A stretch of DNA of 57,576 nucleotides, from positions 1 through 57,576 of the forward strand of contig JAFVDZ010000064.1 of assembly GCA_017478205.1 (NCBI GenBank). Direction: 5' to 3'. The notes under the pieces are model-generated. The model was given only the letters and a program-made list of their open reading frames with translations, did not search any database and was not told the DNA's origin. Shown one piece after another: positions 26,596-45,799 of the stretch (positions are counted from its first letter, which is position 1; each line of letters opens with the position of its first letter). The position numbers and the translations under genes are program-made. The DNA is from Spirochaetales bacterium (lineage in GTDB: Bacteria; Spirochaetota; Spirochaetia; Sphaerochaetales; Sphaerochaetaceae).

Positions 26596-27492
26596 ATGAA
26601 GGAATCGATTCACAAATATTTCCAGATTGGAACGATTGCTTGGATGAGCTATCCAAATAGAGATATTCTCGACGCTGTCAAAACCATTGCAAGTGATGAT
26701 TTCTTCGATGCGATCGAAATAACACACAATAGTGATGTTGAGTCGAGAGCAAAAGAGAAGAAGCTCCTTGAGCAGTCACATCTCAAGGTCTGTTATGGTG
26801 CACAACCTAATCTTCTTGGCCCTAAGCTCAATGCGAATGCACTCGATGAAGAAGAGCGCATGAAGGCTGAGGATGCTTTGATTGCTGCGATCGATGAAGC
26901 TGAATATTTCGGTTCTAATAGTATTGCCTTTCTAGCTGGCAAGTGGGAACCGGAAACTCATGAAGAGGCGTATAGACAGTTATTGAAGACAACTAACAAT
27001 ATCTGTGCATATGCAGAAAAGAAGAACATGAATGTCGAGCTTGAAGTCTTTGACTACAACGTCGATAAGGCTGCTCTGATAGGTCCTGCTCCCTTAGCTG
27101 CAAAGTTTGCCTCAGATGTGAGAATGAATCATAGTAATTTTGGTCTTTTGGTTGATCTTTCCCATTTCCCTATCACTTTCGAAAATAGCCATCAAGTAGT
27201 TTCAACGTGCCGTCCATATATTACACATTTCCACATCGGAAATGCGGTATCAGTAGAAGGTAGAGAGGGTTATGGGGATTATCACCAAAGGTTTGGCTTC
27301 CCTGGAGGAGCAAACGATACTTCTCAGCTCGTCGACTTCTTCAGGGAGGTCAGAGCCAATGGCTTTTTTGATAGTAACAGACCATATGTACTTTCTTTCG
27401 AGGTGAAACCTTGGAAGGATGAGGATGAGGATATCATTGTCGCTAACACAAAGCGAGTGATCAACAGGGCTTGGGCACTACTTGAGGATTAA
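26596..27492 (+). CDS. Xylose isomerase-like TIM-barrel protein
   Basis: This 298-residue protein of the AP-endonuclease-2/sugar isomerase superfamily has the usual Glu-Asp-His-Glu metal ligands: LEVFDYN, LLVDLSHFP, THFHIGN and LSFEVKP. The family interconverts sugars, keto-sugars or hydroxy acids by metal-assisted proton or hydride shifts, and this subgroup's substrate is unknown. The ATG at 26596 follows AGGGGAGG. An in-frame TTG at 26542 would read through the operator and is rejected. It is the first gene of the operon, and the dehydrogenase begins 5 nt downstream. Confidence 0.8.
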   Translation: MKESIHKYFQIGTIAWMSYPNRDILDAVKTIASDDFFDAIEITHNSDVESRAKEKKLLEQSHLKVCYGAQPNLLGPKLNANALDEEERMKAEDALIAAIDEAEYFGSNSIAFLAGKWEPETHEEAYRQLLKTTNNICAYAEKKNMNVELEVFDYNVDKAALIGPAPLAAKFASDVRMNHSNFGLLVDLSHFPITFENSHQVVSTCRPYITHFHIGNAVSVEGREGYGDYHQRFGFPGGANDTSQLVDFFREVRANGFFDSNRPYVLSFEVKPWKDEDEDIIVANTKRVINRAWALLED

Positions 27493-27497
27493 CAAAG

Positions 27498-28466
27498 ATG
27501 AAGATGGTAGTACTTGATGGATATACTGAGAACCCTGGAGATATTTCTTGGAAGAGTCTCAGGGCGCTTGGAAGCCTTAAGGTTTATGATAGGACCTCTC
27601 TTACAGATCCAAGAGAGGCGATTGACAGGATTGGAGATGCTGAAATCGTAATCACGAACAAAACTCCAATTAACAGCGAAATCATCGATGCCTGTCCTAG
27701 GATCAAATTCATTGCGGTCCTTGCCACAGGATACAACGTAGTCGATATCGATTACGCGAAAAAGAAGAAGATACCAGTTTCCAATGTTCCAACTTATGGA
27801 ACTGATTCTGTAAGCCAATTTGCTATCGCACTGCTCTTGGAGCTTTGCCATCGCATTGGCTATCACAGCCGGACTGTCTTTGATGGCAAATGGCAAAATA
27901 GCATAGATTGGTGCTATTGGGATTACCCACTTGTCGAGCTTGCTCATAAGACAATGGGAATCATCGGGTTTGGACGAATTGGTCACCGAACAGGCCAGAT
28001 TGCAGCAGCCCTTAATATGAAGGTCATAGTCAATGATGTCTTCATCAATCCTGACTATAAGGCTGAGGGCTTTGAGTATGTTGATAGAGCGACGCTCTTC
28101 AGGGAAAGTGATGTAATCGTTCTCCATTGCCCACTATTTGAGGGCACTGTGGGAATTATCAACAAGCATTCGATCAGACTCATGAAGGAAGGTGTCATGA
28201 TCGTAAATAACAGCAGAGGTCAACTGATAGTAGAAGAGGACCTTGCTGAAGCACTTGAAAGTGGTAAGGTTGCCGGGGCTGCTGTAGATGTTGTCTCAAC
28301 AGAGCCTATAAAGGAAGACAATCCTCTTTTGAAGGCAAAGAACTGCATAATCACACCTCATATGAGCTGGGGCTCAAAAGAGGCGCGTGAAAGGATTATG
28401 GAGATGACAGCTGCCAACATTCAGGCTTTTATTTCAGGTAAGCCAATGAATGTTGTCAACAGATAG
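27498..28466 (+). CDS. D-2-hydroxyacid dehydrogenase
   Basis: This 322-residue NAD(P)-dependent enzyme of the glycerate/hydroxypyruvate-type family has the Rossmann motif GIIGFGRIGHRTG. The catalytic triad is intact: Arg in NNSRGQL, Glu in STEPIKED and His in ITPHMSWG. VATGYNVVDIDYAK and the GTDSVSQFAIALLLEL stretch match the glycerate dehydrogenase branch. It could reduce or oxidise a 2-oxo/2-hydroxy acid produced in this pathway. A weak terminator and a long structured gap separate it from pdxA2. Confidence 0.9.
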   Translation: MKMVVLDGYTENPGDISWKSLRALGSLKVYDRTSLTDPREAIDRIGDAEIVITNKTPINSEIIDACPRIKFIAVLATGYNVVDIDYAKKKKIPVSNVPTYGTDSVSQFAIALLLELCHRIGYHSRTVFDGKWQNSIDWCYWDYPLVELAHKTMGIIGFGRIGHRTGQIAAALNMKVIVNDVFINPDYKAEGFEYVDRATLFRESDVIVLHCPLFEGTVGIINKHSIRLMKEGVMIVNNSRGQLIVEEDLAEALESGKVAGAAVDVVSTEPIKEDNPLLKAKNCIITPHMSWGSKEARERIMEMTAANIQAFISGKPMNVVNR

Positions 28467-28473
28467 TAGATTT

Positions 28474-28493
28474 AAAGACAACGTGTCTTTTTT
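28474..28493 (+). terminator. Weak intrinsic terminator within the operon
   Basis: AAAGACA pairs with TGTCTTT over a 3-nt loop, and the T-run totals six. The stem is AT-rich, so read-through to pdxA2 is likely. Confidence 0.5.
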
Positions 28494-28565
28494 AGTCAGA
28501 TAAATGCCTAGAAAGTGTATAGGCGAAGCGTGATTTTTTCCAGTAATGGGGGCGGGTAGGGATAG

Positions 28566-28622
28566 GAGCTTGGAGTTTTATTGAATAGCACAGGGGACAA
28601 ATTCTGATAAAACTTCAAGCTC
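28566..28622 (+). repeat. 16-bp inverted repeat (long hairpin) upstream of pdxA2
   Basis: The arms 28566-28581 (GAGCTTGGAGTTTTAT) and 28607-28622 pair throughout, with one G-U. The loop 28582-28606 is 25 nt. The 3' arm ends 43 nt before the pdxA2 ATG, and no T-run follows, so it is not a terminator. Confidence 0.75.
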
Positions 28623-28664
28623 TTGGGTACATTTTATCTTGATTTGGGAATCGGGGGAAGGCGA

Positions 28665-29672
28665 ATGGATAAACCTATTCTTGGAATGCTCTTGGGTGAC
28701 CCCGCAGGGGTTGGGCCCGAGATAGTTGCAAAACTGATAGTGAATGGGTTCATAAGTGAACTTTGTCATCCTGTATATATCGGAGACAGAAGAGTTCTAG
28801 AACGTGCCTTCAGGATCATCAACGAAAAACACCCGATAAGAACGATCAACGATGTTTCAAGAGCTGATTTCAATTCTAAATCAGCTCATCTTATCGACCT
28901 TAAAGATGTGAACCTTGATCTTTGTCCAATTGGAAAGGTTTCAGATGAGGGTGGATATGCTTGCCTAGATCAATTGTCTTTAGCTAGTGAACTTTGTCTT
29001 GATAAGGAGATCGAGGGATTCTGCTTTGCTCCACTAAACAAGGCAGGGATGAAGAATGCAGGCCTTAATGAAGAGAGTGAACACCACTATCTTGCAAAAG
29101 CCTTTGGAGTGGATGGTCCATTTGGTGAAATAAATGTAGTTGGGAGCGTCTGGACTACACGCACAACAAGCCACATCCCGATCAAGGATGTATCCAAGAA
29201 CCTCACAGTAGAGAGAATCCTGAGTGCAATTACTCTTTGTGATTCTGCACTTAAAAGTAGTGGCATATCCAAGCCAAGAATTGCAGTTGCTGCCTTGAAT
29301 CCTCATTGTGGAGAAAACGGGCTGTGTGGAAGAGAAGAGATAGATGTGATCACTCCTGCAATAGAAAAGGCAAATGAGATGCATTGCAATGTCTTTGGCC
29401 CATATTCAAGTGATGTGCTGTTCATCAAGGCTTTCGATGGAGAGTTTGATGGAGTTGTGACTATGTACCATGACCAGGGGCAGATAGCACTGAAGCTCAA
29501 AGGCTTTGAGAAGGGAATTACGATTGCAGGCGGTCTTCCGTATCCTATCGTTACCTGTTCCCATGGCACTGCATATGATATTGCGGGAAAGAATCTGGTA
29601 AGCACTAAGGCGTTCGAAAATGCAATAAGGATGGCATCGAGGATAGCAAATCATATTGCAGGGAGAATATAG
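28665..29672 (+). CDS. pdxA2: PdxA2-type 4-phosphohydroxy-acid dehydrogenase
   Basis: This 335-residue NAD-dependent enzyme is of the PdxA family. The start PILGMLLGDPAGVGPEI, the metal/phosphate site SEHHYLAKAFG and the late MYHDQGQIALKLKGFEKG and SHGTAYDIAGKN are diagnostic. The context (hydroxyacid dehydrogenase, TctBAC, transketolase, no pyridoxine genes) favours the PdxA2 branch. That branch oxidises and decarboxylates 4-phospho-D-threonate or 4-phospho-D-erythronate to dihydroxyacetone phosphate. The DUF1537 kinase that normally makes its substrate is not in the window. GGGGAAGG precedes the chosen ATG. An earlier in-frame start at 28623 has no ribosome site. Confidence 0.82.
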   Translation: MDKPILGMLLGDPAGVGPEIVAKLIVNGFISELCHPVYIGDRRVLERAFRIINEKHPIRTINDVSRADFNSKSAHLIDLKDVNLDLCPIGKVSDEGGYACLDQLSLASELCLDKEIEGFCFAPLNKAGMKNAGLNEESEHHYLAKAFGVDGPFGEINVVGSVWTTRTTSHIPIKDVSKNLTVERILSAITLCDSALKSSGISKPRIAVAALNPHCGENGLCGREEIDVITPAIEKANEMHCNVFGPYSSDVLFIKAFDGEFDGVVTMYHDQGQIALKLKGFEKGITIAGGLPYPIVTCSHGTAYDIAGKNLVSTKAFENAIRMASRIANHIAGRI

Positions 29673-29693
29673 GATATGGAAAAGGAGGAAAGA

Positions 29694-30167
29694 ATGAAGG
29701 GTAGAATGTTCATGGGTTCTATTGCTGACAACATGCCTAGGATAATCCCTGTTTCTACCTCGATATTGGCACTCATCTGGATATTCCTTGGTATCAAGAG
29801 CTATGGAGTATGGGATGAGTATAAAGGCCCAAAATCGGGCTTCTTTCCTACGATCATTGCATTTGTCCTCCTCATTGTTAGCGTCATTGCCATCTTCACT
29901 TCAAAAAATAAGGCAAAGCCATTTTTTGAAAGTGGCAATTGGCTAATTGCGATTGCTCTCATGAAGATGGTTCTTATGAGCTATATATTCGGCCTTGAGC
30001 TATCTGTAGTTGCTTTCATGCTCCTTTGGCTGAGAGTGAAAGAGAAATACTCTTGGAAGATAACATTGATAACAACAATCAGCGTCATGCTGATAGTTGT
30101 CGGTGTGTTCAGAATGTGGCTAAAGATCCAATTTCCGTTAGGGCTGATTGGGTATTTTATAACTTGA
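29694..30167 (+). CDS. tctB: Tripartite tricarboxylate transporter, small membrane subunit TctB
   Basis: This 157-residue protein has four predicted helices and the TctB pattern: first helix, then KSGFFPTIIAFVLLIVSVIA and a C-terminal helix with FRMWLKIQFPLG. It is the small membrane component that works with TctA and the binding protein TctC in secondary uptake of organic acids. I choose the ATG at 29694, five bases behind AAAGGAGG. An in-frame ATG at 29676 lacks a ribosome site. It follows pdxA2 after 21 nt. Confidence 0.85.
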   Translation: MKGRMFMGSIADNMPRIIPVSTSILALIWIFLGIKSYGVWDEYKGPKSGFFPTIIAFVLLIVSVIAIFTSKNKAKPFFESGNWLIAIALMKMVLMSYIFGLELSVVAFMLLWLRVKEKYSWKITLITTISVMLIVVGVFRMWLKIQFPLGLIGYFIT

Positions 30168-30180
30168 GGGGATATTCGGC

Positions 30181-31698
30181 ATGTCAAATATTTCGATGCT
30201 TTTGAATGGATTTTCAGTAGTATTGACATTTCAGAATGTCTCCATCTGCCTGCTTGGAGCAATTCTTGGACTGATTGTTGGTGCGATGCCTGGAATTGGC
30301 TCCCTTGCAGGTGTTGCATTGTTGCTTCCTCTCACATACAAGTTCAATCCGACAAGCGCAATCATTCTTCTTGGGTCTCTATATTACTCGAATATGTTTG
30401 GAGGCTCATTTAGCGCAATTCTTCTGAATATTCCTGGAGATAGCCCAGCTGTGATGACAATGCTAGATGGCTATCCTATGGCAAAGAAGGGAAGACCTGG
30501 TCAGGCTCTCTTCTGTGCAAATATTTCCTCTTTTATCGGCGGTGCAATTGGCTTGCTGATACTCACATTCCTTGGCCCAGGAATGGCTAGTTTTGGCCTG
30601 CATTTCGGACCTCAGGACATGACAGCGCTACTTTTAGTTGCTATGACGAGTATCGGCTATCTTGTTGGGAAGAACCCAATTGAAGGCATTATCATGACTC
30701 TTGTTGGAATCTTAATATCTTCAATTGGAATGGATCCTCAATCTGGGGCTCCTCGATATAACTTCAATAACATGTATCTAATGGGTGGTATCCCATTTGT
30801 TCCATTTGTAATCGGAACTGTTGGGTTTTCACAGGTTTTACGGCTAATGTCTGAAAGAAATGACAGAGTTGACGATGAGATATTGAAGCAGAGGCTTACT
30901 ATCAAGGGATCGTTGCTTACACGTCATGATTTCAGGAGAATGCTTCCTTTTGCAGTTAGATCTGGTGTACTTGGAACATTTGTTGGGGTTCTGCCTGGAG
31001 CAGGGGCCACCACTGGAGCTTTCCTCGGCTATGCTATTAACAGAGCATTTAAGAGCGAAGAATCTTTCGGTAGTGGAGCCATAGAAGGAATTGCATCCTG
31101 CGAAGCTGCAAACAATGCAGCTGCCGCTGGGGCCTTTGCTCCTCTTCTTGCCTTAGGAATCCCGGGCTCTGGAACTGGAGCTGTACTGCTTGGTGGCCTT
31201 ATGATGTGGGGCCTTAGCCCAGGTCCTCTTCTCTTTAGGAACAATCCTGAATTTGCCTGGGGTCTCATTGCATCACTCTTTTTTGCAAACTTGATCGCTT
31301 TGGTTATCGCAATTGGCCTGATTCCTTTTTTGATAAAGATACTTACAGTTCCTGTGAAGATAATTATCCCAGTTGTGACTGTGATCTGCTTCGTTGGTTC
31401 TTATGCAAATACATATTCAATGTATGGTGTTGTAGTAATGTTCATATCGGGAATCGTTTCCTACATATGTGAAAAGAGTGGATACAGTACAGCACCAATG
31501 ATTCTTTCATTCGTGCTTGCACCACTCTTGGAAAGCAATATGCGAAAGGCTCTCATAACAAGCCAGGGTTCTTTGAGGATATTCTTTACAAGTCCGATTG
31601 CATGCACATTCATCATTATTCTGTTCATTATCATCTCATTTATGATAATTCGCTATTTTTCTAGAAGCTCGAAAACAACAATGGAAGGAGGAAAATAG
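30181..31698 (+). CDS. tctA: Tripartite tricarboxylate transporter, large membrane subunit TctA
   Basis: This 505-residue protein has about twelve helices. Family hallmarks are present: the N-terminal GAMPGIGSLAGVALLLPLTY, SFSAILLNIPGDSPAVMTML and later LPGAGATTGAFLGYAINRAF with ALGIPGSGTGAVLLGGLMMW. TctA is the proton- or sodium-coupled translocation subunit for citrate, tartrate and other carboxylates. The order B-A-C here differs from the classic C-B-A of Salmonella. It is separated by 13 nt from tctB and 1 nt from tctC. Confidence 0.95.
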   Translation: MSNISMLLNGFSVVLTFQNVSICLLGAILGLIVGAMPGIGSLAGVALLLPLTYKFNPTSAIILLGSLYYSNMFGGSFSAILLNIPGDSPAVMTMLDGYPMAKKGRPGQALFCANISSFIGGAIGLLILTFLGPGMASFGLHFGPQDMTALLLVAMTSIGYLVGKNPIEGIIMTLVGILISSIGMDPQSGAPRYNFNNMYLMGGIPFVPFVIGTVGFSQVLRLMSERNDRVDDEILKQRLTIKGSLLTRHDFRRMLPFAVRSGVLGTFVGVLPGAGATTGAFLGYAINRAFKSEESFGSGAIEGIASCEAANNAAAAGAFAPLLALGIPGSGTGAVLLGGLMMWGLSPGPLLFRNNPEFAWGLIASLFFANLIALVIAIGLIPFLIKILTVPVKIIIPVVTVICFVGSYANTYSMYGVVVMFISGIVSYICEKSGYSTAPMILSFVLAPLLESNMRKALITSQGSLRIFFTSPIACTFIIILFIIISFMIIRYFSRSSKTTMEGGK

Positions 31699-31699
31699 G

Positions 31700-32680
31700 A
31701 TGGATAAGTTATTGATAATTGCACTTACACTTTCCCTGATTCTGCCTTTGCATTCTAAAGGCTCACAGGAGGTGGCACAAACAGATTTCAAGCCAACTAA
31801 GGAGATTACCTGGTATTGCACATCTAAGCCAGGTGGTGGCTCAGATATCTATACCAGAGCAATTTGTGAAATAGCTGTGCAGAATGGGCTCTTAGATAAG
31901 GCCCCGATAATAAACTACAAAACAGATGGATCTGGTGAGGTTGGAAGGAATGAGGTTGCAAATATAGGCCAGAATGCAGATTATACACTGCTCACATTCA
32001 ATAGTGGGGATCTCATGCCAATGGTTGCAAATACTCATAACAGGCTTTCCAATTTCACACCAATTGCGATCATGGCAACTGATAAGCAGCTTCTCTTTGT
32101 GAACCCCAATAAGGGGAAATATAGCACATTCGAGGAGGCAATTAGAGCAGCCAAGGGCGGAGTCCAGATCGTCATTGCAGGATCTAAGGGCGATGACCTT
32201 GAGCTATATGGAATGTTAATAAAAGAGCTTGGGCTGAGAGAAAACCAGATGGCCTACATAACCAACGACTCTACTGCCGATGCCATTACAAGTGGTCTTG
32301 GTGGTCATGTGGATTTTGTGATGTCCAAGCCAGCAGCAGCAAGTGAATATGTGAAGGCAGGAATGCTTGTTCCTGTTCTTGCCCTTTCTTCTTCCCGCTT
32401 TGCAGGTGCCCTAAATAGTGCTCCTACGCTTAACGAAGTCAACTCCATGTACAACAATGTAGAACTCCCAGTATGGAGGGGAGTCGTTGGCCCTGCAAAT
32501 ATGAGTAAGGAGGCAGCAAAGTTCTACTCGGACATGCTTTTTGAGGTTTCCTGTTCAATTGCTTGGAAAGAGGGATACCTAGCGACCTACTCTCTTGAAA
32601 GTTCCTTCCTGGATATGGAAGCAGCGAAGGCATATATGGAAGAGTATCAAACTGCTTATCTGAAGAAGATAGGCAAGTAA
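31700..32680 (+). CDS. tctC: Tripartite tricarboxylate transporter, periplasmic binding protein TctC
   Basis: This 326-residue binding protein of the Bug/TctC family has an N-terminal signal peptide of about 20 residues, without a lipobox cysteine. The first beta strand and the carboxylate-binding loop read ITWYCTSKPGGGSDIYTRA, matching the GGG-D pattern of the family. A later VQIVIAGSKGDDLELYGMLI and GLGGHVDFVMSKPAA fit the second domain. It delivers a carboxylated substrate to TctAB, and the neighbours suggest an acid sugar or hydroxy acid. A strong hairpin follows 18 nt after the stop. Confidence 0.92.
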   Translation: MDKLLIIALTLSLILPLHSKGSQEVAQTDFKPTKEITWYCTSKPGGGSDIYTRAICEIAVQNGLLDKAPIINYKTDGSGEVGRNEVANIGQNADYTLLTFNSGDLMPMVANTHNRLSNFTPIAIMATDKQLLFVNPNKGKYSTFEEAIRAAKGGVQIVIAGSKGDDLELYGMLIKELGLRENQMAYITNDSTADAITSGLGGHVDFVMSKPAAASEYVKAGMLVPVLALSSSRFAGALNSAPTLNEVNSMYNNVELPVWRGVVGPANMSKEAAKFYSDMLFEVSCSIAWKEGYLATYSLESSFLDMEAAKAYMEEYQTAYLKKIGK

Positions 32681-32698
32681 TATTCCTTATTGTTGCTT

Positions 32699-32735
32699 GG
32701 GACTGCCGAAAGTTGTTTTTGGCAGTCCCTTTTCT
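32699..32735 (+). terminator. Intrinsic terminator/attenuator after tctC
   Basis: A perfect 9-bp stem GGGACTGCC/GGCAGTCCC with a 13-nt loop is followed by TTTTCT. It probably ends most transcripts after tctC and lowers expression of the racemase-fold gene that begins 15 nt later. Confidence 0.8.
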
Positions 32736-32749
32736 AAAAGGATTCTGAT

Positions 32750-33415
32750 ATGAAAAAGTTGATGCTTCTGCACACTGTAAAATCTGTCTGTGATTCATTT
32801 GAGAATGCACTCTCCCAAGAGCTTGGGAGCGATGTGATAATCGACAGCATGCTCGACACATTTCTTGCAAATGAACTCAAGAGAAATAATGGTGAATTTA
32901 CAGAGACGAACAGACTACGCTTTGTTTATGACCTTGAGAGCTTGGAGCTATCTAGGCCAGACATGATCGTAGTAACTTGCTCTAGCCTGTCAGTCTTGAT
33001 CCCAACCCTGAGACCATTTTTCAGAACACCGATAATTGCAATCGATGATGAGATGTGCAAAAAAGCTTTGGAAATGGGAGATAAGATTGCAATATTGGCA
33101 ACAAGCCAAGGTGCGAGCAACTCACTTGAATGGAAACTTGATAATCTTTCAAAGGAAAGTGGCCGTGATGTCTATCTTGAGTCTTTCTGCTGTATTGCGG
33201 CAATGGATGCATTGCAAAGAAAAGATAGGGATGAACATGACAAACTTGTGCTTGATATGGCAAGAAAGGTTTCCCGACCCTTTGATGTTATCGTGCTAGC
33301 TCAAGCATCCATGGCCCATACAAGAATGGCCATAGAAAGGGAATGTAGAATCTGTACTCTAGATTCTCCATCTCTTTGCATAGAGCAAGTGAAGAAATTG
33401 CTGTCAAAACTCTAG
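32750..33415 (+). CDS. Asp/Glu racemase-superfamily protein with one catalytic Cys
   Basis: This 221-residue protein has the tandem Rossmann-like fold of aspartate/glutamate/hydantoin racemases and maleate isomerases. The first catalytic cysteine is present in IVVTCSSLSVL (Cys77). The second half, where the partner Cys normally sits in a G-C-T/E motif, reads DVIVLAQASMAHT with no Cys. Single-Cys relatives include decarboxylases that protonate one face, so a racemase reaction is doubtful. It overlaps the convergent gntR by 4 nt. The substrate is probably an intermediate of the adjacent acid pathway, by context only. Confidence 0.7.
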   Translation: MKKLMLLHTVKSVCDSFENALSQELGSDVIIDSMLDTFLANELKRNNGEFTETNRLRFVYDLESLELSRPDMIVVTCSSLSVLIPTLRPFFRTPIIAIDDEMCKKALEMGDKIAILATSQGASNSLEWKLDNLSKESGRDVYLESFCCIAAMDALQRKDRDEHDKLVLDMARKVSRPFDVIVLAQASMAHTRMAIERECRICTLDSPSLCIEQVKKLLSKL

Positions 33416-34053
33416 AGCTTCAAATCCTCAGGGCAAGTTTCGTGAATGATGTGCTCATACATCAAATTCTTGCACTCTTGCTTCTTGCCTTCTTTCAAAA
33501 GGCTCATGATCGTACCATGTTGCTTGATGTAATCTTTCAATTCAGGAGAGTAGAGGTTCTGGTTGACTCTTAGCTGCTGGATCTTGATTTCAAGTCTTTC
33601 ATATACGTTGTACAGTGTAATGTTGTCAGAAGCCTTTACGAGTGAAAGGTGGAAAAGTGAGTCCTGAATGAAGATTCCAGCTCTGTCATCTATGTCTGCA
33701 GCATATTGGCACTCAGCTGCATGCCTTGCAAGGTCCTTCAGGTTTGCCTCAAGATTTTTGGGAGTGATCAAATCAATGGCAAGGCACTCAAGGTCTATTC
33801 TGACTCTTGCAATGTCAGCAGCTTCCTTTTCAGAAATGGAGGAAACGACAGCATAGCAGCGTGGCTTGATATCGACAAGGCCGTACTCGCCAAGACGTCT
33901 GACAGCTTCCCTTATCGGAGTTCTCGAAACACCAAATTCCTTAGCAAGATGCTCCTCTGGAATCTTCTCTCCGCCTTTGTACTCTCCACGTAGAATCTTG
34001 CTCTTTAGAAGAGTGTAGATTTCATCTGAAAGATTCTGACCATGTGGATGCAT
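33412..34053 (-). CDS. GntR-family repressor, FadR/FCD subgroup
   Basis: This 213-residue regulator has an N-terminal winged helix (residues 10-75: LKSKILRGEYKGGEKIPEEH, EFGVSRTPIREAVRRLGEYG). Its helical FCD ligand domain carries the metal-binding Asp/His pattern (RIDLECLAIDLI, then FHLSLVKASDN and YIKQHGTIMSLL). FCD domains usually bind a carboxylic acid on a metal. It lies between the two catabolic operons and is divergent from the transketolase genes. The palindrome ATTGTATACAAT occurs at both operon promoters, so it is the obvious candidate repressor for both and for itself. GGAGGGAG precedes the ATG. Confidence 0.92.
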   Translation of the reverse strand: MHPHGQNLSDEIYTLLKSKILRGEYKGGEKIPEEHLAKEFGVSRTPIREAVRRLGEYGLVDIKPRCYAVVSSISEKEAADIARVRIDLECLAIDLITPKNLEANLKDLARHAAECQYAADIDDRAGIFIQDSLFHLSLVKASDNITLYNVYERLEIKIQQLRVNQNLYSPELKDYIKQHGTIMSLLKEGKKQECKNLMYEHIIHETCPEDLKL

Positions 34054-34351
34054 ATGACTCCCTCCAAATCCAATTTTCTATTTTATATCACGAAATGGGA
34101 GAGAACGCGAATGATTTTGTATACTATTTTGCATAATTAATGGTTTTAGATGGGCTATTTTTGGGAAAACTGAAAAATCGTATATCTAATGTATACAATT
34201 ATCTCAACTTTCGCTTAAAAAAAGGTAGAAAAGCCGACTTAAGACCGATGTATACCATTTATATTGTGTTAAATATAAAAGATTTGACACTAATTTTTGA
34301 TTGTGTTATTCCTTATTGTATACAATAATAAAAGAACAGGGGAAATTTGCT
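34054..34351. promoter_or_regulatory. gntR/transketolase intergenic region with four GTATAC-cored sites
   Basis: Four GTATAC cores occur in 205 bp, at 34119, 34191, 34250 and 34318 (first base). The flanks grade from perfect ATTGTATACAAT (34315-34326) and 11/12 AATGTATACAAT (34188-34199) to weaker TTTGTATACTAT (34116-34127) and GATGTATACCAT (34247-34258). A consensus TTGACA lies at 34284-34289. The -10-like TACAAT at 34321-34326 is inside the strongest site, with TTGATT 18 bp upstream. Confidence 0.7.
34315..34326. promoter_or_regulatory. Perfect GntR operator candidate
   Basis: This 12-bp palindrome ATTGTATACAAT covers the -10 of the transketolase promoter. It is identical to the site at 26541-26552. 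Confidence 0.65.
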
Positions 34352-35236
34352 ATGACTGCAGAGGATTTATTCAAGAATCCGAATCAAAAATTACGAGCAA
34401 GAGAACTTTCGTATCTAGCAGCATTTTTCCGTGTTGAAGCTTGGAATATTCTTTATGAGAGAGGTACTGGTCATTGGGGAGGCGCTGCAAGCGCCATGGA
34501 ACTGACCACAAGTCTCTATTTCAACCGAATGAATATAAGGTCTGAAGACCCCTCTTGGGAAGATAGAGACCGCTTCATCCTCTCTAAAGGGCATGCCTCG
34601 ATTAACCTATATACAGTACTCGCATATAGAGGCTTCTTCTCTCCTGAAATCCTTCCATCTTTCAGAACTCTTGGGGCTACGCTTCAGGGTCACCCTTCGA
34701 TGATTACTACTCCTGGTGTAGATCTTTCTACTGGAGCTCTGGGCCATGGGCTTTCGGTTGGCCTTGGTATGGCACTAGCTGCAAGACACTTGAAAAAGAG
34801 TTACTGGACTTATGTGCTCACTGGAGAAGGATGCCTCAATGAGGGTTCGAGTTGGGAAGCCTTGATGTGTGCTGCAAAATATCGCCCAGAACGCTTTGTC
34901 CTCCTCATCGACTATAACAAGGTACAGCTTGATGGGTATGAAGAGGATATCATGCCACTTGAGCCACTCAGAGATAAACTTGTTTCATTTGGCTGGAATG
35001 TGCCAGAGCAGAGTTTTGATGGGAACAATACTGGAGACATCCTCAAGTCCTTTGTATGGCTAGATAACGAAGATAAATGGCCAAAGGCGATAATATACAA
35101 GACTACAAAGGGTATGGGTGTTTCGTTTACTGAAAACGACAACCATTGGCACGGAGCGAAAATCGACGACGAGAGCTTCAAGAAAGGTTTGCTAGAGCTT
35201 GGCTCAGACCTTTCAAGGAGGGAAATCTGGTTATGA
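34352..35236 (+). CDS. Transketolase, N-terminal (thiamine diphosphate) subunit
   Basis: This 294-residue subunit of a split transketolase has SKGHASINLYTVLAYRGFF, GALGHGLSVGLGMAL and the diphosphate motif TGEGCLNEGSSWEAL ... LIDYNKVQLDG. Canonical enzymes have GDG at the metal-binding turn, and here it is GEG, a conservative change. Such split enzymes transfer C2 units, and several have specialised roles in unusual sugar catabolism. The ATG at 34352 follows AGGGGAA. The longer frame from 34301 would run through the operator and is rejected. It overlaps the C-terminal subunit by 4 nt (ATGA). Confidence 0.92.
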   Translation: MTAEDLFKNPNQKLRARELSYLAAFFRVEAWNILYERGTGHWGGAASAMELTTSLYFNRMNIRSEDPSWEDRDRFILSKGHASINLYTVLAYRGFFSPEILPSFRTLGATLQGHPSMITTPGVDLSTGALGHGLSVGLGMALAARHLKKSYWTYVLTGEGCLNEGSSWEALMCAAKYRPERFVLLIDYNKVQLDGYEEDIMPLEPLRDKLVSFGWNVPEQSFDGNNTGDILKSFVWLDNEDKWPKAIIYKTTKGMGVSFTENDNHWHGAKIDDESFKKGLLELGSDLSRREIWL

Positions 35237-36168
35237 GTATCGCAATGAGAGACGCATATGGAAAGCATCTTGCCAAGCTAGGAGGAGAGTATCCTGAATT
35301 GGTTGTTCTCGATGCAGATGTATCCTCTTCAACAAGAAGCAACATCTTTGGAAAGGAATTCCCAGATAGGTTTTACAATGTAGGCGTTGCCGAAGCAAAC
35401 CTTGTTGACATTGCAAATGGTCTTGCGATCTGTGGTCTTAAACCTGTTGTGAATACATTTGCAATCTTTCTAGTTCTCAAGGCTGCAGACCAGATAAGGA
35501 ATGTCAGCGCATATAATAGTCTTCCTGTCGTATTTGTTGGCTCTTACGGTGGTCTTTCAGACTCATATGATGGAGCAAGCCATCAGGCAATAGAAGACAT
35601 TGCCATCATGAGAAGCATTTCCAGGATGCAGGTCATCGTTCCTTCCGATGCAAGACAGGCAGAGCTTGCACTCGATTATGCACTTAAGCAGGATGGTCCT
35701 GTCTATATCAGGATATGCAGGAATGAGGTTGCTGAGCTTCCAGAGCCAGAAAGTTTTGATGGAAATGCAATCCAGGTGAGGGAAGGCAATGATATAACAA
35801 TTGCTGCAAATGGTATCACTGTAGGCTTCGCTCTTGAAGCTGCAAGTGAGCTGAAAAAGGAAGGAATTGAAGCTGAAGTCTTCTCTGTTCCTTTTGTGAA
35901 ACCGATGAAGTTTGATGTGCTTGAAAAAAGCATAAGAAAGACAAAGAGATTGTTGACTGTTGAGGAACATGTCCTCGACGGTGGCTTTGCAAGCGCTATA
36001 TGTGAAAAGTTGATGTTGAGTGGCCTCATGCCAGACTTTGACTCAATCCATCTTACCGATTTTGCAGAGAGTGGACCATATGATGAACTTCTGAAGAAGT
36101 ATGGGATAAGTGCTGAAAATATTGCATCAAGAGCAAGAGCTCTTTTCATGAAAGGAGCTCATCGATGA
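35233..36168 (+). CDS. Transketolase, C-terminal (pyrimidine) subunit
   Basis: This 311-residue partner subunit has the catalytic Glu in NVGVAEANLVDIANGLAICG, which activates the cofactor aminopyrimidine. It also has a phosphate/substrate region VVFVGSYGGLSDSYDGASHQ and the C-terminal domain with RLLTVEEHVLDGGFASAICE. With the preceding gene it makes a complete heterotetramer. The ATG at 35233 overlaps the previous stop and has AAGGAGG upstream. A reading from 35146 merely repeats the other frame of the upstream gene. It overlaps the next gene by 4 nt. Confidence 0.93.
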   Translation: MSIAMRDAYGKHLAKLGGEYPELVVLDADVSSSTRSNIFGKEFPDRFYNVGVAEANLVDIANGLAICGLKPVVNTFAIFLVLKAADQIRNVSAYNSLPVVFVGSYGGLSDSYDGASHQAIEDIAIMRSISRMQVIVPSDARQAELALDYALKQDGPVYIRICRNEVAELPEPESFDGNAIQVREGNDITIAANGITVGFALEAASELKKEGIEAEVFSVPFVKPMKFDVLEKSIRKTKRLLTVEEHVLDGGFASAICEKLMLSGLMPDFDSIHLTDFAESGPYDELLKKYGISAENIASRARALFMKGAHR

Positions 36169-36983
36169 AGCTTGGTGTTTCAATTGCAAGTCACAATGCT
36201 CTTCCTGATGCCTTTGTTGTTTTTCGTGGGATAGATGAAGCTATAAGAAAGGCAGCAAGGCTTGGTTATGATGGTGTGGAGCTTGCTCTTGTGCGCCCTG
36301 ATGAGATAGATAGAGCACACCTTAAAGCACTCTTGAAAGAAACAGGTATGGAAGTTTCTGCAATTTCAAGTGGTCAAGTGTTCTCGCAAAGGAACCTATG
36401 CTTTACAGATGACGATAAGGAGAAGCGAGAAGAGCTCAAAAGGACCTTCTGTGGCTTTATAGACCTTGCATCTGATTTTGGACAGCTAGTCAACATAGGA
36501 AGAGTCAGAGGGAGCAAGGGTAAAAAGGATCCAAAGCTATGTGAAGAGCTGTTTGTGGATATGGCGAGATATCTTTCAGATTATGCAGAGAAGAAAGGTG
36601 TTTCGCTGATTCTTGAACCAGTCAATCGCTATGAGATTGATTTTGTGAACAATCTAGATGAAGGAAAGCAATTGATTCATCTTGTCGACAGAAAGAACTT
36701 TCTTATGATGGCCGATGTTTTTCATATGAATATCGAAGATGACCTCATTGGGCCAGCCATCAAACGCAACAAGGAGTATGTGAAGTACATACACCTTGCT
36801 GATTCAAATAGGCATGCACCTGGAAAGGGGCACATGCCTTGGGATGAGATTTTCTCAGCCCTTTCTGATATAGGCTTCTGCGGTTGGACTACTATCGAAA
36901 TCCTTCCTTTTCCTGATCCGGATACTGCTGCGGGAAATGGTATAGGATTCATTAAAGGAAGGTACGGTAAGTATTACAACTGA
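36165..36983 (+). CDS. Sugar (phosphate) isomerase/epimerase, TIM barrel
   Basis: This 272-residue protein of the D-tagatose 3-epimerase/hydroxypyruvate isomerase superfamily has the metal ligands Glu (LILEPVNRYE), Asp (MMADVFHMN), His (KYIHLADSNRHAPGKGHMPW) and Glu (TTIEILPFPDP). The HxADSNRxxPGxGH signature occurs in ketose 3-epimerases. It is translationally coupled to the transketolase subunits. It may supply the ketose substrate that the transketolase cleaves. The exact substrate is unknown. Confidence 0.82.
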   Translation: MKLGVSIASHNALPDAFVVFRGIDEAIRKAARLGYDGVELALVRPDEIDRAHLKALLKETGMEVSAISSGQVFSQRNLCFTDDDKEKREELKRTFCGFIDLASDFGQLVNIGRVRGSKGKKDPKLCEELFVDMARYLSDYAEKKGVSLILEPVNRYEIDFVNNLDEGKQLIHLVDRKNFLMMADVFHMNIEDDLIGPAIKRNKEYVKYIHLADSNRHAPGKGHMPWDEIFSALSDIGFCGWTTIEILPFPDPDTAAGNGIGFIKGRYGKYYN

Positions 36984-37058: not shown

Positions 37059-38777
37059 TCATTCTACATCCTGCAAAGCGTCATAGCCTTCTTCTCCAGT
37101 TCTGACCTTGACTACATTCTCACAGTCATAGACAAAGATCTTTCCATCTCCGATATGGCCTGTGTAGAGAACCCTCTTTGCAGTCTCAATTACCGATCTG
37201 ACTGGAATTGCAGAAACTACGATATCGACCTGCACCTTTGGCCTCAGATCTGTCTCGACCTGGACACCTCTGTATATCTCGACATGGCCATTCTGCATGC
37301 CATAGCCCATGACATGGGAAACTGTCATGCCGGTAATACCGAGTTTTGCCATTGCTTCCTTAAGTTCATATAGCCTCTCTTCCTTGAAGATGATCTCAAT
37401 CTTTGTGAACTTGTGTCTTCCTGTTTCAAAGGAGTGCTCTCTCTTGACTGGTATAGCTTCTGCAACAGGAATATCGCCAGGAACTATCACAGCATCTTTT
37501 TCTATCATTCCAAACTTGCTAACTGCAGGCATGAAATCTGCATAGGCACTAGGTAGGCCGTGTTCACTCTTATCAAGACCTGATAGTTCATCCTGGATAT
37601 CTGCTCTGAGAAAGTTCAGCTTCTTCAAAAGAGAGAAGAATAGAAACATCGTAACAGTAGCCCAGGAGCCAACTGCAAGAAAGCCTACCAGCTGGATATA
37701 TATCTGATAGAAATCACCTGTGTAGAGGAGACCTTTAAGGTGTGCAGGAGCATCAGGATTTGATAGTAGCCCAACTGCAATTGTTCCCCATATGCCATTT
37801 GCACAGTGGACACCTACAGCACCAACTGGGTCATCGATATGCAGTTTCAGATCTAGCATCTCAACGACACCTACTACAAGAAGACCTGAGACTGCACCTA
37901 CAATGAGAGCACCAACTGCATCGTATGCATCACAGCCAGCTGTAACAGCGACAAGACCTGCAAGAGATGCATTGAGACACATGGAGACATCAGGTTTCTT
38001 GTTCTTGATCCATGTGTAGATCATAGCAACACAGGTTGCCACTGCAGGAGCAATGGTTGTTGTAAGGAAGATGGAGGATAGCTCTGATGGAGTTGTTGCG
38101 GCAGCTCCATTGAAGCCATACCAGCCAAACCAGAGAATGAATACGCCCAGTGCACCAAGTGGAATGGAATGACCTGGGATCGCATTTACTTTCACGATCT
38201 TACCATCTCTATCTTTCACATACTTACCTGTTCTCGGCCCAAGTATTGCAGCTCCGATTAAAGCTGCGATACCACCGACCATGTGTATTGCACACGATCC
38301 TGCATAGTCGTGAAAGCCGAGTGATGAGAGAAAGCCACCTCCCCAGATCCAATGTGCCTCGATAGGGTAGATTATCATGCTGATGAACCCTGAATAGACA
38401 CAGTAGGCTGAGAACTTCGTCCTTTCTGCCATCGCTCCCGAAACGATAGTAGCTGTTGTTGCACAGAAGACAAGGTTGAATACAAAGGTGCTTGCATCTG
38501 TGAAGCCAGCTTCCTTGGCCTGGATGAATTTGCCAAAATCAACAAAGAGATCAAAGTTTGGCTTTCCAATAAGGCCAAAGAAGGAATCTTCACCCATCAT
38601 CAAAGTATAGCCAAGGAACATGAAGACTACGGTTCCGATACAGAAGTCCATCAGATTCTTCATGATGATGTTTCCTGCATTCTTTGCTCTGGTAAAGCCT
38701 GTTTCGACCATTGCAAAGCCTGCCTGCATCCAAAATACAAGTGCTGCTCCGATCAGGAACCAGAATTCTACACTCAT
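37059..38777 (-). CDS. amt: Ammonium transporter fused to a PII (GlnB/GlnK) domain
   Basis: This 572-residue fusion has an Amt channel in residues 1-410, with eleven helices, ALVFWMQAGFAMVETGFTRA at the start, AHWIWGGGFL and the C-tail LSGLDKSEHGLPSAY. After a 45-residue linker comes a complete PII domain (about 455-572). Its T-loop reads GYGMQNGHVEIYRGV, keeping the Tyr that is modified in other PII proteins, and ends with TGHIGDGKIFVYDCENVVKV. PII proteins normally plug Amt as separate trimers, and here the plug is covalently attached to the gate. It is co-transcribed with glnN, which lies 12 nt upstream. Confidence 0.95.
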   Translation of the reverse strand: MSVEFWFLIGAALVFWMQAGFAMVETGFTRAKNAGNIIMKNLMDFCIGTVVFMFLGYTLMMGEDSFFGLIGKPNFDLFVDFGKFIQAKEAGFTDASTFVFNLVFCATTATIVSGAMAERTKFSAYCVYSGFISMIIYPIEAHWIWGGGFLSSLGFHDYAGSCAIHMVGGIAALIGAAILGPRTGKYVKDRDGKIVKVNAIPGHSIPLGALGVFILWFGWYGFNGAAATTPSELSSIFLTTTIAPAVATCVAMIYTWIKNKKPDVSMCLNASLAGLVAVTAGCDAYDAVGALIVGAVSGLLVVGVVEMLDLKLHIDDPVGAVGVHCANGIWGTIAVGLLSNPDAPAHLKGLLYTGDFYQIYIQLVGFLAVGSWATVTMFLFFSLLKKLNFLRADIQDELSGLDKSEHGLPSAYADFMPAVSKFGMIEKDAVIVPGDIPVAEAIPVKREHSFETGRHKFTKIEIIFKEERLYELKEAMAKLGITGMTVSHVMGYGMQNGHVEIYRGVQVETDLRPKVQVDIVVSAIPVRSVIETAKRVLYTGHIGDGKIFVYDCENVVKVRTGEEGYDALQDVE

Positions 38778-38789
38778 TCTATTACCCTC

Positions 38790-40886
38790 TTACTTTACTC
38801 CAAAAAGGAGGTCTGAATAGACAGGGAATGGCCAGTAGCTTCTCTCTGTCATCATTTCTGCCTTGTCGCATGGCATCCTTAGTTCGCTCATTAAAGGAAT
38901 CAGGGTGTCCCTTACCATCTTCGACTGCTCTATGATGTCCTCTACACCTTTTACCTTGCAAATTGCATTCTCGAGCCTCTCAAGGTTTGCTGTAATTTCA
39001 TCGATGAGATAAGAAAGCTCTTCGATGAGTTTTGTCTCATATGAACACTTTAGTGTTGGTACGATAGCCTTCTTGTTCATTGCAGCTTTTGCAACATCAG
39101 ATAGATAGTTCTCGATCGCTGGAGCAATCTGGGTCCTTGCCATATCGACCATAGTGTTTGCCTCTATGATGATGGTCTTTGTGTAGTTCTCGAGGTTGAT
39201 ATCTCTTCTGGACTTTAGCTCGTCCAAAGTGTAGACCTTCATTCTTGAGAGCATCTTGACGTTCTTCTCATCCATGAGATGTGGAATGCAGTCAGCAGTT
39301 GTCCTGTAGTTCAGAAGTCCTCGCTTCTTTGTAGCTTCCTGTATCCAGGCATCATCGTAGCCGTTGCCATTGAAGATTATTCTCTTGTGCTCCTTGATCG
39401 TCTTGACAATCAACTGGTGGAGAGAAACTTCAAAGTCATCAGCCTTCTCAAGAGTGTCTGCAAAGATTCTCAAAGTATCTGCAACAGCACTGTTGAGCAT
39501 TATGTTTGCACATGCAATGCTATCAGAAGAGCCGACCATTCTGAATTCGAACTTGTTGCCAGTGAATGCAAATGGAGAGGTTCTGTTTCTATCTGTTGTA
39601 TCTCTGTTGAAGAATGGAAGCACATCTACACCGAGCTGCATTACAGTCTTCTTTGTTCCAGGATATTCTCTATCCTCTTCTAGAGCTTCGAGAATTGCAC
39701 TGAGTTCATCTCCGAGGAAGATCGAGATCACAGCTGGTGGTGCTTCATTTGCACCCAGACGGTGGTCGTTTCCTGCTGTTGCAACAGAGATTCTGAGAAG
39801 GTCCTGATAGTCATCTACTGCCTTGATAACGGCACAGAGGAAGAGCAAAAACTGTGCATTTTCGTATGGTGTCTCGCCAGGGGATAGAAGGTTCTGTCCA
39901 TCATCTGTGCTGATTGACCAGTTGTTGTGCTTTCCCGATCCGTTCACACCAGCAAATGGCTTTTCGTGGAGAAGACAGACAAGACCATGTCTCGATGCAA
40001 CGCTCTTCATGATATCCATAGTGAGCTGGTTGTGGTCTGTTGCAATGTTCGTAGTCGTATAGATTGGAGCAAGCTCGTGCTGAGCTGGAGCAACTTCGTT
40101 ATGCTCAGTCTTTGCAAGTATGCCAACTTTCCAAAGTTCCTTGTTCAGATCTTCCATGAATGCTGCAACAGTCGGCTTGATCGCACCGAAGTAGTGGTCA
40201 TCAAGCTCCTGTCCCTTTGGAGGTCTTGCACCGAAAAGGGTTCTGCCTGTAAAGCGAAGATCTGGTCTCTTTTCATACATTTCACGTGTTATGAGGAAGT
40301 ATTCCTGCTCTGGTCCAACTGAGGAGACGACGCGATTTGCTGATGTGTTGCCAAACAGATGGAGGATTCTCACAGCTTCATGGCTGAGAGCTTCCATACT
40401 TCTAAGAAGGGGTGTCTTCTTGTCGAGAACCTGACCGCCATAAGAGCAGAAAGCAGTTGGGATATAAAGTGTTTTTCCCTTGATGAACGCATAGCTAGTT
40501 GGATCCCAGGCAGTATAGCCCCTTGCTTCGAATGTGGCTCTGAGCCCACCGGATGGGAAAGAAGAGGCATCTGGCTCACCTTTTATTAGCTCCTTGCCTG
40601 AAAATTCCATGATTACAGAGCCATCTGGAGACTTGGTGATGAACGAGTCATGCTTTTCTGCTGTTATGCCTGTAAGTGGTTGAAACCAATGAGTAAAGTG
40701 AGTTGCACCGTTCTCGACAGCCCAGTCCTTCATAGCTTCTGCAACTGCGTTGGCAACTCCGATGTCGAGTGTGGTGCCTCTGCTTATCGTCTTGCTAAGT
40801 GATTCGTAGACTTTGCCAGAAAGACGTGCTCTCATGACTCGGTCATCGAAAACCATACATCCAAAGTAATCAGAAACCTTTTGCAT
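38790..40886 (-). CDS. glnN: Glutamine synthetase type III
   Basis: This 698-residue GSIII makes glutamine from glutamate, ammonium and ATP. Large size and motifs such as [48 protein letters not shown]-like [44 protein letters not shown] and [11 protein letters not shown] mark the type III family. AAGGAG lies eight bases before the ATG. Its leader holds two large hairpins, one terminator-like. Together with amt-PII it forms an ammonium-scavenging operon, divergent from the glutamate synthase operon. Confidence 0.97.
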
Positions 40887-40908
40887 ATGTAACTCCTTGT
40901 AAACTGAA

Positions 40909-40960
40909 GAAGGGCAAAGGATATTCGTGTGTTTTTACACGAAAGACGCCTTTGCCCTTC
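40909..40960 (-). other. Leader hairpin B of the glnN-amt transcript
   Basis: In the minus-strand RNA a perfect 12-bp stem (GAAGGGCAAAGG/CCTTTGCCCTTC) carries an inner 7-bp stem TTCGTGT/ACACGAA with the six-base loop AAAAAC. It ends 10 nt before the glnN ribosome site. Its 5' arm repeats GGCAAAGGCGTCTT of hairpin A, so it can instead pair with the 3' arm of A (nine bases). Confidence 0.7.
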
Positions 40961-40986
40961 ACCATGTTTCTTGATAGATAAATAGA

Positions 40987-41024
40987 AAAGGCGTCCTCGA
41001 GCTGATTAACTCGAAGACGCCTTT
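40987..41024 (-). terminator. Leader hairpin A of glnN-amt, terminator-like
   Basis: In the minus-strand RNA the arms AAAGGCGTCTTCGAG and CTCGAGGACGCCTTT pair over 15 bp with one G-U, around an 8-nt loop. TTCTATTT follows, giving a T-rich tail. On the plus strand the same position would be a C-A mismatch, which favours function in the glnN direction. It sits close to the predicted transcript start, as expected of an attenuator. Confidence 0.7.
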
Positions 41025-41040
41025 GCCTTCATGTCAGTCA

Positions 41041-41069
41041 CGCTACTACCAAACAAATTTTTCTGTCAA
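41041..41069 (-). promoter_or_regulatory. Predicted promoter of glnN-amt
   Basis: On the minus strand a consensus TTGACA (41069-41064) is present. The -10 region 17 bp further (GTAGCG) is poor, so the promoter may need activation. The transcript would begin just ahead of hairpin A. Confidence 0.4.
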
Positions 41070-41115
41070 TAGCTTTGAGGAAATTTTTTATAGTTCAATT
41101 TTTTTCTTCCCCTTC

Positions 41116-41145
41116 TTGACATGGAGAAGTAAGAAGAACTAAAAA
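41116..41145 (+). promoter_or_regulatory. Predicted promoter of the glutamate synthase operon
   Basis: Consensus TTGACA (41116-41121) is followed after 18 bp by TAAAAA (41140-41145, four of six). The transcript would start around 41151, a few bases before hairpin C. Confidence 0.5.
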
Positions 41146-41159
41146 GACAAGAAATGAGC

Positions 41160-41208
41160 AAAGGCGTTCATTACCGCATGGGAAAACTATGCGATAATGG
41201 ACGCCTTT
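41160..41208 (+). terminator. Leader hairpin C of the glutamate synthase operon, terminator-like
   Basis: Two 20-nt arms, 41160-41179 and 41189-41208, pair with only one G-U and one C-A mismatch around a 9-nt loop. TTGTTTT follows the 3' arm, which itself ends in TTT. The base of the stem, AAAGGCGT...ACGCCTTT, is the same sequence used in hairpin A of the divergent glnN leader. It lies between the promoter and the first gene, so it should act as an attenuator. Confidence 0.8.
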
Positions 41209-41231
41209 TTGTTTTCATGAAGGATGCACTT

Positions 41232-42326
41232 ATGAAAAGAGAAGGTGAAGTTCGTATTCCATCAGGCTGTGCAATTGCAGCTGTGATCTCAAGGAAAAAG
41301 GAAAATATCCCAGGCTCTCTCATCATAAAAGCGATGGGGCCGATGCACGATAGAAGCAATGGTCTGGGTGGTGGTTTTGCAGGATATGGAATCTATCCAG
41401 AGTATAAGGACTTCTATGCAATGCACCTGTTTTTTGATAACAGGGACTCAAGGAAGGCCTGCGAAGTGTTCATCAAGGAGTATTTCGAGATTGTCAAATC
41501 TGAAGTGATTCCAACACGGAAAATACCATCGATCACCGATGAGCCTATCATCTGGAGATATTTTCTCCATCCTCTGATGTCCATGATGCTATCTTTGCAG
41601 CTTGATGAGAAATCTTTTGTGGCGAGAGCTGTCATGAAGATAAACACTGAACTTGATGGAGCCTATGTCTTTTCAAGTGGAAAGAATATGGGAACCTTCA
41701 AGGCAGTCGGATACCCAGAAGATGTAGGACTCTTCTATCGTCTTGAAGAGTATGAGGGCTACTCCTGGACTGCACATGGAAGATATCCAACGAACACACC
41801 AGGATGGTGGGGTGGTGCCCATCCATTCTCTCTTCTCGATTATTCCGTTGTCCACAATGGAGAAATCTCATCATACGATGCAAATCGTCGCTTTATCGAA
41901 ATGTATGGCTATAAGTGCAATCTCCAGACTGATACGGAAGTTATTACATACATACTGGATTACCTTATCAGAGTGAAGGGCCTCACATTGAATGAGGCAG
42001 CAAATGTGATCGCAGCACCCTTCTGGAGCACGATAAATGGCGAAAAGGACAGAAGGGAAAGTGAGATACACGCATATCTGAGAAAGACTTTTCCAAGTCT
42101 TCTTATCACAGGACCATTTTCAATTGTCCTTGGTTTTGAGGGTGGCATCATGGCCCTCAATGATCGCTTGAAACTCAGGTCCATGGTAGTTGGAGAGATG
42201 CGTGATAGGGTCTATATCGCAAGTGAAGAAGCTTCTATCAGGGCAATGGATGATTCAGCCAAAGAGATCTGGGCACCAGCTGGAGGCCAGCCTGTGATCG
42301 TAAGAGTAGAGGATGAGAGAGCATGA
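41232..42326 (+). CDS. Glutamate synthase, class II glutamine amidotransferase subunit
   Basis: This 364-residue protein corresponds to domain 1 of GltB. It would release ammonia from glutamine using an N-terminal-type Cys in RIPSGCAIAAVI (residue 12 from my start). It has SNGLGGGFAGYGIYP, SAHGRYPTNTPGWWGGAHPF-like AHGRYPTNTPGWWGGAHPFS and VHNGEISSYDANRRF. The open frame extends upstream to 41154, but that part is leader hairpin C. AAGGA lies seven bases before the ATG at 41232, so I start there. An ATG at 41217 has no ribosome site. It overlaps the FMN subunit by 4 nt. Confidence 0.9.
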   Translation: MKREGEVRIPSGCAIAAVISRKKENIPGSLIIKAMGPMHDRSNGLGGGFAGYGIYPEYKDFYAMHLFFDNRDSRKACEVFIKEYFEIVKSEVIPTRKIPSITDEPIIWRYFLHPLMSMMLSLQLDEKSFVARAVMKINTELDGAYVFSSGKNMGTFKAVGYPEDVGLFYRLEEYEGYSWTAHGRYPTNTPGWWGGAHPFSLLDYSVVHNGEISSYDANRRFIEMYGYKCNLQTDTEVITYILDYLIRVKGLTLNEAANVIAAPFWSTINGEKDRRESEIHAYLRKTFPSLLITGPFSIVLGFEGGIMALNDRLKLRSMVVGEMRDRVYIASEEASIRAMDDSAKEIWAPAGGQPVIVRVEDERA

Positions 42327-43828: not shown

Positions 43829-43838
43829 GGGGGATGAA

Positions 43839-44558: not shown

Positions 44559-44577
44559 TAAAGGGAGGAGAGATTAG

Positions 44578-45789: not shown

Positions 45790-45799
45790 GAGGCTGATT

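Follow-up and report, generated by a model that had tools for sequence, protein, structure and literature searches.

The window analysed here, a stretch of 57,576 nucleotides, is one whole contig of a Spirochaetales genome of 1.90 Mb in 98 contigs. It encodes a GntR-family regulator whose gene lies between two groups of genes, referred to below as the transketolase operon (operon A, 34352–36983) and the second operon (operon B, 26596–33415):

26596–27492, plus strand: xylose-isomerase-like TIM-barrel protein, head of the second operon (Pfam, 4.9e-17)
27498–28466, plus strand: D-2-hydroxyacid dehydrogenase (Pfam, 8.3e-55)
28665–29672, plus strand: PdxA-family dehydrogenase (Pfam, 9.1e-89)
29676–32680, plus strand: tripartite tricarboxylate transporter TctB, TctA, TctC (Pfam)
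32750–33415, plus strand: Asp/Glu racemase-family protein (Pfam, 4.9e-16)
33412–34053, minus strand: GntR-family regulator with FCD domain, placed in the VanR group, 213 aa (Pfam GntR 7.5e-18, FCD 4.8e-17)
34352–35236, plus strand: split transketolase, N-terminal half (Pfam Transketolase_N, 2.7e-46)
35233–36168, plus strand: split transketolase, C-terminal half (NCBIfam transketolase model, 5e-74, under its cut-off)
36165–36983, plus strand: IolO-like sugar epimerase (NCBIfam IolO, 7.2e-72, under its cut-off)

The pathway to which these genes belong is spread across the Sphaerochaetaceae, rumen and gut members included, and literature searches on it listed no paper that, judged by title and start of abstract, describes its gene set. 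The single DUF1537-type acid-sugar kinase domain detected in the genome is encoded on another contig (G000 C71:68822–69439, in a 791-aa open frame), and the PdxA-like enzyme is therefore without such a kinase adjoining it. The sulfoquinovose transketolase pathway, which is present in rumen Sphaerochaetaceae according to the available text of PMC13219744, was considered, and the PdxA/TctABC gene content does not point that way. Outside the spirochaetes, PdxA-like, racemase-family, IolO-like and split transketolase genes are clustered in a KSB3 bacterium (L094), which suggests a mobile or ancient pathway. Beyond the transketolase operon, and judged from translations only, the window encodes an ammonium transporter (37059–38777) whose C-terminus resembles a fused PII-type signalling domain, and a nitrogen cluster (38790–46390) with a large glutamine synthetase, split glutamate synthase pieces, a second glutamine synthetase and an ANTAR-like regulator.

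Palindromes in the window and in the genome

The 298-bp gap between gntR and the split transketolase (34054–34351) contains GTATAC cores at 34119, 34191, 34250 and 34318, in core-to-core steps of 72, 59 and 68 bp. Across 5,000 dinucleotide shuffles of this gap the mean number of cores was 0.05 and the maximum 2, which bears out the array of four cores, 59–72 bp apart, described in the initial annotation; over the full window, 15 cores are found against 5.0 expected. Its second claim, that the perfect palindrome recurs at the other operon, also proved correct, as the exact 12-mer ATTGTATACAAT occurs at two places only in the window, 26541–26552 and 34315–34326. The quality of the cores is uneven: the one at 34316–34325 is a perfect TTGTATACAA, two others carry one mismatch, and that at 34250 carries two. 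The predicted operators, none of which is assigned a strand, are as follows:

26541–26552: second-operon operator, perfect ATTGTATACAAT, 49 bp before the start of the TIM-barrel gene
34116–34127: operator 1, gntR-proximal, TTTGTATACTAT, 68 bp from the gntR start, with a gntR-proximal counterpart in 21 of 22 divergons
34188–34199: operator 2, internal, AATGTATACAAT; an internal third site is also present in the relatives L065, L084, L085 and L086
34247–34258: operator 3, weak, GATGTATACCAT, without demonstrated positional conservation
34315–34326: operator 4, perfect ATTGTATACAAT, immediately 3' of the predicted transketolase-operon -10

A scan of the genome for the exact TTGTATACAA 10-mer returned 6 copies against 1.6–5.8 expected, and a genome-wide regulon defined by the exact motif was rejected on this chance-level copy number. 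The four copies outside the window (L001–L004) lie upstream of a translation-GTPase-like gene, a PepSY-like gene and an FCD regulator, with one intergenic; apart from the FCD regulator, these neighbours were named from their translations. Scattering of the motif among unrelated genes, which according to the initial annotation would speak against a local regulon, is thus seen in a weak form, in that four other exact copies exist but their number is that expected by chance and one of them precedes an FCD regulator. The list of places with one mismatch was too noisy to be used (126, versus 77 for a reversed control). It is the local arrangement and its conservation, not genome-wide motif counts, that carry the argument for a regulon.

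Conservation and promoter geometry in relatives

Orthologs of the regulator were sought in 84,980 genomes, and the best 80 of 382 confirmed loci were kept; the 42 of these with at least 35% identity made up the ortholog set, and the remaining 38 served as a distant control. The 350-bp stretches upstream of the 42 orthologs, 14.4 kb in all, hold 64 sites with at most one mismatch (4.4/kb), against 38 in the remaining 540 kb of the same loci (0.070/kb) and a mean of 1.3, at most 6, in 200 rounds of shuffling of the upstream stretches. At least one such site is present within 350 bp upstream in 31 of the 42 loci, and none was found within that distance in the other 11 (L067, L074, L081–L083, L094, L096–L099 and L103). 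In the Sphaerochaetaceae, 21 of 22 gntR/transketolase divergons, the window included, have a TTGTATACAA-like site close to either gene, 45–111 bp (median 66) from gntR and 16–81 bp (median 40) from the transketolase gene. In L082, the one divergon that departs from this pattern, two-mismatch sites form an overlapping double palindrome. Across the sites of the 21 divergons the G and C at key positions are invariant, and TTGTATACAA fits the FadR-subfamily operator criterion of a palindrome with GT and AC about 2–3 nt apart. Pairwise alignment of the gap DNA with that of L065 was too divergent to help. In some loci a fused double palindrome of the type TTGTATACCGTATACAA, with two GTATAC cores 7 bp apart, stands in place of a single operator (L047 at about 6119–6132, L050 at about 7804–7816, and L082 upstream of gntR).

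The site on the transketolase side is held in a nearly fixed relation to a predicted promoter:

34284–34312, plus strand: predicted sigma-70 promoter of the transketolase operon (TTGACA 34284–34289, TGT 34304–34306, TATTCC 34307–34312)

In 21 of 21 divergons TTGACA starts 29–32 bp ahead of this operator, a hexamer that appears in 1.1% of shuffles of the same 40 bp, and in all 21 a spacer of 17 ends in TG-N and is followed by a hexamer starting with TA (TTGACA-N14-TGN-TA). The operator begins directly after the predicted -10 and should therefore cover the transcription start. On the other side, the site of several relatives lies just upstream of a TTGAC motif pointing to gntR, a placement compatible with autoregulation of either sign and not one that dictates repression.

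Two readings other than binding by the neighbouring regulator bear on these data. The palindromes might be AT-rich sequences without function that arose by chance, as the genome count of the exact 10-mer, about that expected, would allow; the way they cluster locally, their near-fixed position relative to the promoter and their conservation tell against this, and as an account of the whole set we regard it as extremely improbable. Conservation argues against chance for the sites on the transketolase and gntR sides, and for the weak core at 34250 chance is possible. Alternatively, the sites could be bound by another FCD paralog. The genome encodes five FCD proteins, one of which, encoded on contig C71, is preceded at about 60 bp by an exact TTGTATACAA, and cross-talk between the paralogs is possible. 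The motif is, moreover, common to distant FCD regulators: a site with at most one mismatch is found upstream of 17 of the 38 in the control set, which are 28–36% identical and mostly from Proteobacteria by record title, versus 0.012/kb elsewhere in their loci. Since many FCD regulators use the motif, position and conservation, and not sequence alone, name the binder. Against a role of another paralog, the sites co-occur with the orthologs of this regulator, in the adjoining gap, across the Sphaerochaetaceae, and we consider such a role improbable.

The regulator and its likely mode of action

Both Pfam models, an N-terminal GntR winged helix and a C-terminal FCD domain, score above cut-off in the regulator. 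An AlphaFold2 model built from a 38-sequence input (mean pLDDT 91) consists of the winged helix and six C-terminal helices, at residues 75–95, 98–120, 124–140, 145–165, 169–187 and 191–203. Six rather than seven effector-domain helices is the count of the VanR group (PMC7797058, cited here and below from its available text), and on this predicted structure the regulator belongs to the VanR group of FCD proteins. The closest PDB entries by sequence, all of GntR/FCD type and compared by fold and sequence only, are Pseudomonas aeruginosa PmiR (7XP0/7XP1, E 1.7e-29), TM0439 (3FMS/3SXY, E 2.7e-26 to 3e-26) and Escherichia coli McbR (4P9F, E 4.6e-25), the top PDB matches being GntR-type; by structure, the closest are 2HS5, AlkR(VanR), 3IHU and McbR. 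Nothing of use came from a literature search on PmiR. In the effector domain, H135 and H179 are invariant and H201 nearly so among 38 regulators, the metal site of metal-binding FCD members consisting of three His and Asp/Asn; D131 is invariant in a smaller set of six regulators (A1) and absent from the list of invariant residues of the larger set.

The closest worked precedent is Atu1419, a VanR-group FCD repressor of Agrobacterium fabrum (PMC7797058, PDB 6Z74/6ZA3). As in the window, a 10-bp GTATAC-cored palindrome is present in several copies in the gap separating the regulator gene from a divergent target, one copy overlaps a -10, the genes concerned serve acid catabolism and the regulator has the FCD fold. 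The Atu1419–DNA complex matches the model of our regulator with a Z score of 14.5 over 198 residues. Its residues E34, R45, T46 and R49, reported to contact DNA, correspond with an offset of +1 in the structurally aligned range to E33, R44, T45 and R48 of the helix-turn-helix, which are invariant among the 38 regulators. The two systems differ in the operator, which is TTGTATACAA here and, bound at -10 boxes by Atu1419, ATGTATACAT there, and the regulators are 22–23% identical; tetramer formation, looping and folate as the proposed effector are features of Atu1419 itself. In a literature search with TTGTATACAA there was, judging by title and start of abstract, no paper on GntR among the matches listed; a CitO paper that combined FCD, GntR and GTATAC was discarded as a precedent, the matching sequence being a primer.

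On these grounds the palindromes are very probably the docking sites of the regulator, because relatives keep them at the same promoters, and we hold with good confidence that they are operators through which the adjacent VanR-group FCD/GntR protein would repress both operons until an effector releases it. The proposal of the initial annotation that the sites tie gntR and the two operons into one local regulon is strongly supported by the same placement in orthologous loci, and the regulator has the fold and the DNA-contact residues of GntR/FCD repressors that bind such a palindrome. In the mechanism that we infer, a regulator dimer on operator 4 would, without effector, cover the start site and shut off the transketolase operon, while the palindrome at 26541, overlapping a probable -10, would shut off the operon for the TIM-barrel protein, 2-hydroxyacid dehydrogenase, PdxA-family enzyme and TctABC; the gntR-proximal site would provide autoregulation. 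The effector is probably a carboxylate, either a substrate of the pathway or one of its intermediates, and its binding in the FCD pocket would release the protein and induce both operons. Binding, the sign of regulation, the effector and autoregulation are all predictions of this kind, and they offer a testable regulon, an operator and an induction assay for an uncharacterised acid-catabolism pathway with TctABC, a PdxA-like enzyme and a split transketolase.

How the several sites of the gap might act together is a separate matter. The initial annotation had suggested that spacing near whole helical turns could allow looping; this did not hold, as the adjacent steps are 6.86, 5.62 and 6.48 turns at 10.5 bp. 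The near-whole-turn pairs are the outer one (199 bp, 18.95 turns) and sites 2–4 (127 bp, 12.1 turns) only. A tetrameric regulator could nonetheless bridge the outer sites, or link the array to the site at 26541, in the manner of Atu1419, a tetramer whose loops, seen by electron microscopy, join sites separated by 190 bp (PMC7797058), and relatives with three sites have outer spacings of 203–206 bp. However, over 21 divergons the outer spacing varies from 87 to 206 bp; its helical phase is not shared (R = 0.17) and it lengthens with the gap (r = 0.79), the behaviour predicted for sites that each act on a promoter of their own; furthermore, the regulator is closer by sequence to PmiR, TM0439 and McbR than to Atu1419, which was termed the first tetramer of the superfamily (PMC7797058). 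Looping is, in our judgement, unlikely.

We favour, as the probable arrangement, independent sites that each serve the nearest promoter, extra copies only raising the local concentration of the protein. The median distances to either gene, with a mutual spacing that follows gap length, agree with one of the two divergon patterns of the FadR subfamily, in which a site lies near each gene and the spacing grows with the gap (Suvorova et al. 2015, PMC4494728, in its available text); the two-nucleotide spacing of GT and AC is known there for several FadR-subfamily groups. Unlike those double-site divergons, some loci here have three to four sites. Four cores in the window and three in some relatives are more than independence needs, and the internal sites are without an obvious promoter of their own. 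In the parts of that paper covered, no spirochaete was seen in the taxon table and this ortholog group is absent from the text.

Promoters of the second operon

At the second operon the initial annotation had placed the palindrome over a -10:

26523–26552, plus strand: candidate second-operon promoter, TTGCCA-18-TACAAT, with the -10 inside the operator (consensus scan only, 10/12)

The placement is plausible from the match of 10 of 12 positions, but shuffles of the region average 3.8 such promoter-like sites. In the nearest relative, L064, TTGTATACAA lies 66 bp upstream of the same TIM-barrel gene, and 9 of the 15 relatives in which the head of the second operon is visible have a site with at most one mismatch within 350 bp (L064, L046, L066, L068, L075, L076, L077, L079 and L093); no such site was found before the operon in the other six (L080, L081, L088, L090, L092 and L131).

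Relatives in which a PdxA-like gene heads the operon have a different kind of promoter. Scored against the sigma-54 pattern TTGGCACGN4TTGCT, for which 500 simple shuffles of one window stretch reached 9 at the 99th percentile and 11 at most, 13 of 14 reach at least 10 of 13.5, L081 scoring 9.0. These sigma-54-type promoters lie 54–85 bp ahead of the PdxA-like gene, in seven loci the FCD operator ends 10–12 bp before the TTGGCA of the -24 box, and in 11 of the 14 a PrpR-type activator gene is found inside the locus. In one subgroup the arrangement suggests that the FCD repressor may gate the sigma-54 promoter or its activator. No sigma-54 promoter was detected before the second operon in the window or L064, where the best score was 7.0 of 13.5. 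Of the family's 139 genomes, 53 encode PrpR_N proteins, and no such protein was found in the window's genome, which is 97.5% complete; G135, G146, G148, G150 and G010 also stand outside the 53, several of them incomplete. The gene for RpoN itself has been retained and lies in the window, at 6954–7424. In the regulator tree the clade of the window, L064, L065 and L067 (support 100/99) is nested among lineages with sigma-54 promoters, the deeper forks having moderate support only.

On balance we lean towards a rewiring of the promoter under a conserved repressor, in which dual control by repressor and sigma-54 activator gave way to sigma-70-like, repressor-only control with repressor and operator unchanged. 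In the window's lineage a different gene heads the operon, neither a sigma-54 promoter nor an activator gene was detected, and the operator overlaps a sigma-70-like -10; on this reading the direction of change would be a loss of both in that lineage. The locus may thus offer a natural case of an operon that apparently moved from sigma-54 and activator to sigma-70 and repressor while retaining one operator sequence. A literature search on GntR with sigma-54 or PrpR in spirochaetes gave, within its scope, only unrelated matches.

Some further occurrences of the motif may be recorded. Just past the matched RpoN stretch of the window there is a GTATAC core at 7459, within TTTGTATACTCT; a further core lies at 7728. 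In Bullifex porci (L048 at 1317, L052 at 1501), the PrpR-type activator gene is preceded at about 55 bp by a TTGTATACTA site, and an exact TTGTATACAA (G006 C1:68562) is found upstream of a gene that its translation marks as glycerate-kinase-like, hinting at a wider regulon in that species.
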